Under the pieces are notes generated by a model. That model saw only the letters and a program-made list of their open reading frames with translations, ran no database searches and was not told the origin of the DNA. Below are positions 18,177-21,375 of a DNA stretch of 40,745 nucleotides, one piece after another. The DNA lies in NCBI GenBank assembly GCA_005808865.1, contig SYKU01000249.1, positions 1 to 40,745 on the forward strand, written 5' to 3'. The stretch is from Acidobacteriota bacterium (GTDB taxonomy: Bacteria > Acidobacteriota > Terriglobia > Bryobacterales > Bryobacteraceae). Each line of letters opens with the position of its first letter. Positions within the stretch are counted from its first letter, which is position 1. A program made the translations under genes and the position numbers.

Positions 18177-18689
18177 CTATGCCGCCGCGCCGGCGGTCTT
18201 CCCACTAGCCGCTCCGCCCCGGATCAGGATGGCGAACATCCACACATGCGTCACTACCAGGCTCGGCACGAAGAACGTCGGCAGGAACCAGAAGCCGCCC
18301 AATTGGTAATTAAAAGCCTCATAGCGGGTCGCCTGGATCCCCGCATTCGCGAAATCCGCGAATCCCACAATATTGGTCAGCCAGACCAGCCCGATCGCAA
18401 TCGGCCACCGGCCCCGCAGCGCCAGAAGCGTCACAATCGCCAGTCCCGCCGTGATCAGATCGCCGTACCCGACCGGTTGCGACCACTCCTTAGGAACCTT
18501 CGGGTCTACGACGACCTGTACAATCGCCGTAAGGCCGATGTGCCTCAGGGCATGCGGTAACATCAGGTAGCCGAATTTCTGATGAAACGAAAACCTCGAC
18601 ATCGCCGGAGCGAGATACCACCGTGCGATGAGCGCATAGACAAGGATTGTCAGAGCCATCTGAAGAACAAACACCTGCTGATTCGTCAT
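18177..18689 (-). CDS. Small multi-pass membrane protein, unknown function
   Basis: A 170-residue protein with four or five hydrophobic helices: QVFVLQMALTILVYALIARW, HIGLTAIVQVVVDP, LITAGLAIVTLLALRGRW, AIGLVWLTNIVGFADFANAG, and FFVPSLVVTHVWMFAILIRG. Charged and His residues lie between the helices (MLPHALRHIG, VVTHVW), but no family motif is recognised. The ATG at 18689 has a strong ribosome site, AAGGAGG, eight bases upstream, which supports a real gene. A TATACTGA on the minus strand 56 bases upstream is a likely -10 region. It is divergent from the paralogous pair at 18847 and convergent with ftsK. Function is not assigned. Confidence 0.75.
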   Translation of the reverse strand: MTNQQVFVLQMALTILVYALIARWYLAPAMSRFSFHQKFGYLMLPHALRHIGLTAIVQVVVDPKVPKEWSQPVGYGDLITAGLAIVTLLALRGRWPIAIGLVWLTNIVGFADFANAGIQATRYEAFNYQLGGFWFLPTFFVPSLVVTHVWMFAILIRGGAASGKTAGAAA

Positions 18690-18846: not shown

Positions 18847-20109
18847 ATGGCTAACGACTCTCCGACTGCCGCTCCGGCCTCGACTTCCGCCGATGCTTGG
18901 ATCCTGGCTGATGTAGATCGCGCGCTTGCCGACGGTCTTCGGCTCCGGCAATGGTGGGAACGTACCGATGCCACAAATGCCTACCGGGACAGGTTCCATT
19001 TTCTCGAGAATCTGACGCCTCCCGATCATGCGTTTGGTTTCTTCGCCGACGCGGAAATCGAATCGGGGCCGATCGGCGTGATGGGCTACTCTCACGAGAT
19101 GATCTTCGACGTGCCGAAGGCAGGCTCTCCCGAAGAGTATCGCGACCAGATCCGAGAATTTGTTCTTCACTATCTCTTTCGCGTCTCAGGTATAGCGCCG
19201 CCCGAGCCCGAACGCCAACTCGGATTCGGACCGCTGTTCGCACCCCTGTTCCAACTTTTTACCGAGCGGCCGCCCAACCTCGATGTTCGTCGCGGCTTTG
19301 CCCACACACAGCTCTACTATAAGGACGCCTTAAGCGGTGTTGTCGCGCCTTTTCCGCCGGAGCTTCGCGAGCGGATTATCGATCTACGCGAGATCGGGCC
19401 GAAGTACGGCTGGGTGGTCCTGCGCGCGCGGCCGTTCGATTATGAAATGATGCTGGCACCCTCCGGCCCGGCCGGTCCGCGACTGGTAATTCCGCTGCCC
19501 GATTCTCCCACGATAGCCTTAGACCCCGGCTCGGTGATCGATCAGCACCAGCCGGCCCCGGGGATTCTTGGGCGCTACGGATTCAGCTATTCCCTTCTCC
19601 ACGATCCCACTCCTCGTGGTCCTCAGGTATACGGGCCCGCCCAGTTCCGCGCCTGCTTTCAGAGCATCCGCTTTGATGTCCTGGAAAATGGCGAGAGCCG
19701 CGTGCGCCTGATCTTCGCCGGCAATTTGCCGGACCGAATTCTCGACGTCAAAATCGATCCTATTGGAATCGCTCTTAAAGCCGGCAGTCTCCTTACGTTC
19801 GGCCTGTCGGACCGGCTGCTCAGGCCCTTTGACGACCTGGTTGCCCTGCGGCCCACGTTCGGAAGTTTCGATCCGCTTCTTGGATTCATCTCGACCGCCA
19901 ACGCCGCCACCGGCGGTCTCGCCTCCGGCGGATTCGCCATATCCCGGCGGCAACTCTTCAGCGATATTTTGGCGCGGCACTTTCAGCTCTACTATCAGTT
20001 GATCCTCGATTCCTTGCTCGCCTACCGGCAGGTTGGGAACTGGCTCGACACGGGTAATCTGCCGCCTTGGGCCTCCGGCACCCAAACCCAGCAAGCGGGA
20101 GTTCACTAG
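18847..20109 (+). CDS. Protein of unknown function, first of a paralogous pair
   Basis: A 420-residue protein with no signal peptide, no membrane segment and a single Cys. I do not recognise the family. It shares a long collinear pattern with the next gene: a WWxRTDxxNxYxxRF motif near residue 40, FFxxAxxxSGxI, a QIREFxLxYxxRV helix, a YYK motif followed by IxDLRE, WVVLRARPF, and GPRLVIPL. Later come PGxxGRYGFxY, DPxxxGPxxxGPxxFR, an NLPDRILDVKIDPIGIALKA segment, and a C-terminal helical region ending YQLILDSLLAYRQVGNW. The middle is beta-rich, the ends helical. A good ribosome site (AGGAG) precedes the ATG. Its 3' end carries a 17-bp tandem duplication. A cytoplasmic binding or enzymatic protein is possible; nothing in the sequence decides. 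Confidence 0.85.
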   Translation: MANDSPTAAPASTSADAWILADVDRALADGLRLRQWWERTDATNAYRDRFHFLENLTPPDHAFGFFADAEIESGPIGVMGYSHEMIFDVPKAGSPEEYRDQIREFVLHYLFRVSGIAPPEPERQLGFGPLFAPLFQLFTERPPNLDVRRGFAHTQLYYKDALSGVVAPFPPELRERIIDLREIGPKYGWVVLRARPFDYEMMLAPSGPAGPRLVIPLPDSPTIALDPGSVIDQHQPAPGILGRYGFSYSLLHDPTPRGPQVYGPAQFRACFQSIRFDVLENGESRVRLIFAGNLPDRILDVKIDPIGIALKAGSLLTFGLSDRLLRPFDDLVALRPTFGSFDPLLGFISTANAATGGLASGGFAISRRQLFSDILARHFQLYYQLILDSLLAYRQVGNWLDTGNLPPWASGTQTQQAGVH

Positions 20110-20128
20110 ATGCGGGAGTTCACTAGAT
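20095..20128 (+). repeat. 17-bp tandem duplication across the stop codon
   Basis: GCGGGAGTTCACTAGAT occurs twice without a gap, at 20095-20111 and 20112-20128. The first copy contains the last codons and TAG stop of the upstream gene (GVH then stop). The second runs into the ribosome site AAGGAG of the downstream gene. It looks like a recent slippage or replication duplication. Confidence 0.9.
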
Positions 20129-20139
20129 AAGGAGAAATC

Positions 20140-21375
20140 ATGTCCGCATCCCCGAAGGCCGCTTTCGAACACGAAAGTACTCCATTCCCGGAGGTCGAAC
20201 TCACTGGCGATGACCGGAAGCTGCTGGCTCTGGTCGAACCCTCCCTGGCAGAGGGGAAGGATCTCTACGCCTGGTGGCGCAAGACGGACCGCGCGAACAA
20301 CTACGTGAACCGTTTCAAGCTGCGCCGAGGTCCGTACGACGAGAATCCGTCCGTTGGATTCTTCGACGAGGCAAAACTGTCCTCCGGCGCAATTCCTGTC
20401 CTCGGCGTGGTTCAGAACCTGACTTGGGGACGGACTTCGAACCCGTCGGCGAACTCGCAGATCCGCGAGTTCGCCCTCCGCTACTTCATGCGCGTGGCTG
20501 ATTTCAATAGACCCGCGTCCTTTTCTCTCCGCGAGCTCGCCGGCCGCGCGGCCGATACGAGCGACCCTGGCGGATGGGGCTATTCGCAGATCTACTACAA
20601 GCTCCGCGCCGGCCGCGTCGGCAAGTTTCCCACCGGTGCCCGCCACAAGATCGTCGATCTGCGGGAATTGAAGCCGGGCGGCGCGTACGAATGGATCGTT
20701 CTCCGGGCACGTTTGTTTAACGTCGAGATGAACTTGAGTCCTCTCGGCGACGGCGGCCCTCAGTTGGTGGTTCCGCTCGCCAGGTTCACCGAGGAGTACC
20801 TGATCGCGAGTTCGGAGTTTATTATCGACGAAACCAACCCGGAGCCCGGCGTCGCCGGCCGCTATGGCTTCGGCTACGCAACCATCTCCGACCCCGCCTA
20901 CGAGAACGGCCCTTTGCTCTGGGGACCCGGGCGGTTTAGACCGGGTTTCGAGAGCTTTGTCTTCGAAGTCTCCGAGTGTTCCGATGGCGTCTCGGAGGTG
21001 AGCATTTCGTCACCCTTCGCCGTGAACCGTCCACCGAGGATCTTCGGGATTAACCCGGATCCGATCGCGCTCGGCATTCGTGCCGCCGATTTTTTTTCGC
21101 TCGGTTTTGCCTCGCGCCTTTTCCCCGATTTGAGGGACGGCATCGACCCGCTCCTCACGCCCGTCTCGATCCTCAATACAACAACCGGCGGATTGAGCAG
21201 CCGCTTCCTCGGAATCTCCGTTGACAATCTCGAGCGCTACTTCCTGGTCCAGCATTTCATGTCGGCTTACGATTTGCTGACAGGCGCGCTGCTGACTTAC
21301 GCTCAGGTCCCGGACTGGGCAGCCGGCGAATCAAAGTTGCCATTCTGGGTGCGCGAGGGCCAAGTCGAGGAATAG
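20140..21375 (+). CDS. Protein of unknown function, second of a paralogous pair
   Basis: A 411-residue paralogue of the preceding protein, again without signal peptide or membrane segments. Corresponding blocks in order: LYAWWRKTDRANNYVNRFKL, VGFFDEAKLSSGAIPVLGVV, QIREFALRYFMRVADF, YSQIYYKLRAG, HKIVDLRELKPGGAYEWIVL, and GGPQLVVPLARF. Further on: PGVAGRYGFGYATISDP, GPLLWGPGRFRPGFESFVFE, NRPPRIFGINPDPIALGIRA, ILNTTTGGLSS, and YDLLTGALLTYAQVPDW. The two differ most in the segment between the REF helix and the YYK motif, which is longer in the first. The ribosome site AAGGAGAAATC precedes the ATG. The pair is cotranscribed with a 30-base gap. Two diverged copies side by side suggest heteromer formation or related ligands, which is inference. 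No family is known to me. Confidence 0.85.
   Translation: MSASPKAAFEHESTPFPEVELTGDDRKLLALVEPSLAEGKDLYAWWRKTDRANNYVNRFKLRRGPYDENPSVGFFDEAKLSSGAIPVLGVVQNLTWGRTSNPSANSQIREFALRYFMRVADFNRPASFSLRELAGRAADTSDPGGWGYSQIYYKLRAGRVGKFPTGARHKIVDLRELKPGGAYEWIVLRARLFNVEMNLSPLGDGGPQLVVPLARFTEEYLIASSEFIIDETNPEPGVAGRYGFGYATISDPAYENGPLLWGPGRFRPGFESFVFEVSECSDGVSEVSISSPFAVNRPPRIFGINPDPIALGIRAADFFSLGFASRLFPDLRDGIDPLLTPVSILNTTTGGLSSRFLGISVDNLERYFLVQHFMSAYDLLTGALLTYAQVPDWAAGESKLPFWVREGQVEE

Follow-up and report, generated by a model that had tools for sequence, protein, structure and literature searches.

Two adjacent paralogous genes of an acidobacterial draft genome encode a new protein family inside a known superfamily. 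Structure models make it very likely that this family adopts a START / Bet v 1 helix-grip fold, and folds of this kind are soluble and bind lipids, sterols or carotenoids. Since relatives of the pair are encoded among genes for lipid-modifying enzymes and the predicted fold is START-like, the two proteins probably bind and hand over a greasy molecule rather than representing a new kind of enzyme. We consider it reasonably likely that they are soluble cytosolic carriers that present a hydrophobic lipid or isoprenoid to a set of lipid-modifying enzymes. Two proteins without an assignment in four libraries now have a predicted fold and a testable job, and they are tied to a rare, patchily inherited lipid gene set in Acidobacteriota and their relatives. 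If the carrier reading is true, START-like lipid carriage in bacteria would be coupled to UbiB/ABC1 ATPases, a pairing that is known but poorly understood in coenzyme Q biology.

The window, i.e., the whole stretch of 40,745 nucleotides that was analyzed, makes up contig C190 in an approximately 5.7-Mb draft genome, and the pair lies in it between ftsK and a sulfatase gene. As an earlier note on this DNA had described, the two ORFs are adjacent paralogues of 420 and 411 residues. P0001 (18847..20109, plus strand) and P0002 (20140..21375, plus strand), both of the long START-like type defined below, stand head to tail with a gap of 30 nt and align end to end, far beyond chance (35% identity, 210 bits, E 3e-68). 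Their GC contents by codon position (0.67/0.46/0.68 and 0.60/0.47/0.75) are those of real genes, the neighboring FtsK gene having 0.62/0.44/0.74. The strong ribosome site reported before the pair was found as AGGAG, 8 nt 5′ of the P0001 ATG, and AAGGAG stands shortly 5′ of the P0002 ATG. The claim of a promoter element is weak, as the window contains TATACT five times when both strands are counted and no promoter was detected ahead of the pair in a consensus scan. P0001 and P0002 lack any 19-residue stretch with the hydrophobicity of a membrane span, and the label "cytoplasmic-looking" therefore stands. The small membrane protein said to be divergent from the pair corresponds to a 170-aa hydrophobic protein on the minus strand (18180..18689); it has no Pfam match, and its link to the system is putative only. 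Among the motifs listed as shared by the paralogues, YYK followed by DLRE, GRYGFxY, GPxxFR, and DPI hold as written, but the first block reads WWxxTDxxNxYxxRF, as the position of its Arg differs between WWERTD in one copy and WWRKTD in the other. A perfect 17-nt tandem duplication (GCGGGAGTTCACTAGAT twice, at 20095-20128) runs across the P0001 stop and the gap before the P0002 ribosome site.

By sequence, the proteins belong to no named family. Pfam, NCBIfam, PHROGs, and PADLOC gave zero matches for P0001 and P0002 (Pfam at E up to 10, including START in the strict sense, PF01852), and the family profile had only a chance match among PDB sequences. Similarity to Polyketide_cyc or COQ10-type SRPBCC proteins was also not detected, either with Pfam or with hhalign, which gave a probability of 0.1% against a single Polyketide_cyc2 protein of a related genome. 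As there is no sequence-profile link to the START or polyketide-cyclase families, which counts against the carrier reading, we claim a shared fold and not membership of a named family. The earlier view that the pair matches no known family is correct for these four libraries but not for the fold, which is already known. The viral contigs, plasmids, and phages searched contain no relatives of the family, which leaves a mobile or defense role unsupported.

The fold was computed from two models. The AlphaFold model of P0002, built on a 23-row alignment, has a mean pLDDT of 84.4 and a pTM of 0.84. The short-type protein of genome G065 (32 alignment rows, pLDDT 94.6) was picked as a more independent test, although the two models are not fully independent because their alignments have rows in common. 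The top Foldseek matches of the P0002 model were CERT START domains (E 6.5e-5, prob 0.99). In structural alignments, StAR, MLN64, and STARD3 matched the same model with a Z of 11.7 (for the MLN64 START domain, 213 residues were aligned at 4.7 Å), a START protein that binds carotenoids did so with 11.5, and Bet v 1 proteins with about 10, while the G065 model reached 12.4 to MLN64/STARD3 over 202 residues. The values of 11.7 and 12.4 are well over the 7-8 typical for models without a clear match. In the second-look lists of both models, the top rows belong to START, Bet v 1, and related helix-grip proteins, some of which bind carotenoids or lutein; the rmsd is 4-5 Å for START and about 3 Å for Bet v 1 cores. 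The Foldseek TM-scores are low (0.2-0.45), and the Foldseek lists include low-probability fluorescent proteins too; the case for a START / Bet v 1 fold in these models is carried by the second-look alignments. Both predicted models have the antiparallel sheet curved round a long C-terminal helix that characterizes the helix-grip superfamily. The Foldseek search proposed in the earlier note, run on P0002 and the short-type relative, led to this known fold and to no family named by sequence. Similar to the START domains of MLN64/STARD3, StAR, and CERT (PF01852), the predicted fold extends over nearly the whole domain, including the N-terminal helix (202-213 residues, Z 11.7-12.4). In contrast to them, the family is bacterial, occurs in operon-like settings, is only 3-7% identical in the alignments with no Pfam START match, and is longer, a helical insertion preceding its last helix.

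This insertion (P0002 residues about 305-357, 21052..21210, plus strand) is present only in the long type, between the last sheet strand and the C-terminal helix; its modeled helices span residues 308-320, 323-327, 339-348, and 352-357, and it is possible that they form a lid. The long C-terminal helix itself was placed at residues 361-389 (21220..21306, plus strand) by secondary structure; it includes the nearly invariant H372, and the structural matches reach residues 388-394. Another segment that the long type has in addition to the short type, as seen in long/short alignments, covers residues about 102-144 (20443..20571, plus strand) and ends before a GxGxxQxxYK block; the model has low confidence at residues 121-140 (pLDDT 60 and 53). 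A GPGRF motif (residues 262-266, 20923..20937, plus strand), in the loop between strands 238-249 and 269-279, is conserved in both subfamilies; among 23 sequences, G262 and P263 are invariant and G264 and F266 almost invariant. Over both subfamilies, the invariant columns of these 23 sequences are mostly Gly, Pro, and aromatic residues; D173, R297, and H372 are nearly invariant, and no catalytic-type residue is invariant. Conservation of this kind favors a fold and a pocket over an active site. Of the two roles that had been suggested for the conserved polar and aromatic residues, a binding site fits the START-like fold, whereas the lack of an invariant catalytic-type residue makes an active site the less favored of the two.

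Few genomes have homologs of the family (12 of 299 in the class and 8 of 396 in the phylum). The P0002 search matched six other genomes of the phylum, which were confirmed with both P0001 and P0002, and 15 named loci were obtained from GTDB contigs, most of them titled as Acidobacteriota lineages, one as Zixibacteriota, and one labeled Deltaproteobacteria. The computed homology divides the family into a long type of about 410-440 aa, to which the window pair belongs, and a short type, whose members mostly have about 320-350 aa and share 20-25% identity with P0002; fully supported branches separate the two. Homologs do not always come in pairs, a point raised in the earlier note, but are nearly always found as one copy per locus: the only exception among the 16 other long-type loci is L064, with two intact copies 4 kb apart. 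Pairing is therefore not a family trait. A recent tandem duplication of the pair finds no support in identity, as the two copies are 35% identical to each other and their closest counterparts in other genomes 38-40% identical to them. In the free tree, the window copies are not clearly sisters and have long end branches (1.1-1.2). A tree constrained to join them fits equally or better (AU p 0.76), and an old tandem duplication is accordingly a possible origin of the pair as far as the sequences go. In genome G308, one family gene is broken over two frames; the N-terminal part of the homolog (L025 8943-10604) is the downstream part of a fusion with an unrelated, unnamed domain (about 350 residues), the C-terminal part is in the other frame, and the gene adjoins complex I subunit genes.

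The family is strongly linked to a lipid-processing gene set. At the 16 long-type loci outside the window, where families were assigned with Pfam, the most frequent neighbors are an unnamed family, A3 (13 loci), a patatin phospholipase (11 loci, usually adjacent and co-oriented with the family gene), and an ABC1/UbiB kinase-ATPase (9 loci). Less common are a large secreted-looking protein (6), an acyltransferase (5), a FAD monooxygenase-like protein (4), and a CrtI-type desaturase (3). Short-type loci contain A3 in 10 of 15 cases, and also FadL-type porins, GMC oxidoreductases, and acyltransferases. The Zixibacteriota locus has a gene of the RPE65/carotenoid-oxygenase family, for which the closest NCBIfam names are lignostilbene dioxygenases. 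No similar cluster was found in the literature among open-licence papers. The patatins at long-type loci keep the catalytic Ser and mostly the Asp, and two patatin-like proteins beside short-type genes (L023 1080-2354 and L032 8029-9135) have lost both the Ser (GTGAG / GSGAG) and the Asp of DGG (YGG) and are probably pseudo-enzymes.

Family A3, with the motifs WxxEGLGH, HAGIG, and WHGxGR (for example, L047 9853-11208 and L028 2872-3963), is without a match in Pfam or NCBIfam, and its N-terminal 100 residues also occur as a separate small protein. Its pattern of GxGR-type motifs is vaguely like that of DUF1702 (PF08012), but it was not filed there because Pfam gives no match and the profile comparison only 23% probability. 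Among the 299 class genomes, those with an A3 profile match are exactly the 12 that have the family (Fisher p 1e-21, relatedness ignored); in the phylum set, the profile marks 7 of the 8 family genomes plus two genomes with its N-terminal part only. Full-length A3 is present in 10 of 12 class and 6 of 8 phylum family genomes and in zero of the other genomes searched. Shared ancestry, which the Fisher tests ignore to the disadvantage of the carrier reading, inflates the p-values, yet the co-occurrence persists across 8 of 106 genera.

Bet v 1-type folds include enzymes as well as carriers, and it is conceivable, if rather unlikely, that the pair are Bet v 1-like enzymes, such as aromatase/cyclases or hydrolases whose substrate is an acyl or polyketide chain from the ketosynthases of the same gene set. 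The G065 model does match the WhiE-ORFVI aromatase/cyclase (Z 9.8) and thebaine synthase (Z 9.9), the homolog at L035 adjoins genes for an acyltransferase, a TetR protein, a CrtI-type protein, an SDR, HMG-CoA reductase, and a ketosynthase, and a comparable set in the window genome includes an ACP and two ketosynthases. However, START rows outscore the cyclase rows, D173, R297, and H372 are only nearly invariant, and at most long-type loci, which are partially annotated, no ketosynthase was seen. It is less probable still that the proteins are ligand sensors, in which a lipid-bound START-like domain contacts a partner as the PYL abscisic acid receptors do and might in this way switch the ABC1 kinase. 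The fold searches do list PYL receptors (Z about 9.6-10), and ABC1 genes lie near many homologs, but this likeness reflects the shared superfamily fold only, the family has no fused output domain, and its neighbors are mostly enzymes.

Under the carrier reading, which we prefer, and on the model of START domains, a single hydrophobic molecule would sit in a cavity between the curved sheet and the long C-terminal helix. Candidate ligands are a lipid, an isoprenoid, or a carotenoid-like, polyketide-like, or acyl lipid. We infer that the bound molecule would be shielded from water and carried between the membrane and modifying enzymes, with the membrane-associated patatin phospholipase, the PlsC-type acyltransferase, and the CrtI-type desaturase as putative recipients. 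UbiB/ABC1 ATPases might help to lift the molecule off the membrane, as proposed for Coq8, and the two copies may bind different ligands or work in sequence. The silkworm carotenoid-binding START protein BmCBP is similar in predicted fold (Z 11.0-11.8), and loci of relatives hold CrtI-type and once carotenoid-oxygenase-family genes; however, a carotenoid is at most a candidate ligand of our family. A START domain that binds lutein has been described (PMC4973302).

Two known systems offer analogies at the level of gene sets. Coq10 is a START-type protein, and coenzyme Q synthesis, similar to the family loci, combines such a lipid-binding protein with UbiB/ABC1 ATPase-kinases (Coq8) in one gene set, but no sequence relation of the family to Polyketide_cyc-type SRPBCC proteins was found, and the other neighbors differ. 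Coq8 may extract coenzyme Q intermediates from the membrane (PMC11495197), and Coq10 is described as a coenzyme Q chaperone (PMC11541779). In the plant plastoglobule proteome, ABC1 kinases, an acyltransferase, prenyl-lipid desaturases, and a carotenoid cleavage enzyme co-occur (PMC9725166), as their counterparts do here; this is an analogy, and no fibrillin-like coat was identified. One could imagine, more speculatively and with little expectation of being right, an undescribed bacterial lipid module with a plastoglobule-like parts list: a prenyl or polyketide lipid would be drawn from the membrane by UbiB-type ATPases, ferried by START-like proteins, and remodeled by patatin, acyltransferase, and CrtI-type enzymes, with the tandem copies of this genome forming a two-carrier relay.

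The window pair itself fits the carrier reading less well than its relatives do. It lies outside the lipid cluster, beside ftsK and the sulfatase gene, with none of the tested cluster genes in the 40 kb window, and the only trace of A3 seen in its genome is a small protein that matches the first 100 residues of that family. Even if the relatives are carriers, the pair could have become a relict or been recruited to another role after leaving the cluster, which we regard as improbable. The long end branches of both copies and the truncation of a third copy would agree with such a fate, but both ORFs are intact with normal codon-position GC and retained motifs, and the genome keeps CrtI-type, acyltransferase, ABC1, and patatin genes on other contigs. 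One of these, C328, has an ABC1 gene and the small A3-like protein; two further patatins lie elsewhere, and C220 (L084) has the run acyltransferase-TetR-CrtI-SDR-HMG-CoA reductase-ketosynthase-ketosynthase-ACP-patatin. The acyltransferase of C220 is PlsC/DAGAT-type, its patatin has a cNMP domain, and an UnbV/ASPIC protein is also encoded, in what appears to be an unusual fatty-acid/polyketide-like cluster with a mevalonate-pathway-type reductase. The third family copy (C486:861-1412, L022) is truncated, has an in-frame stop, and lies just before a long gene; it looks like a decayed copy, or the contig is rearranged or misassembled. A stretch of the sequence of that long gene is repeated at the start of C486.
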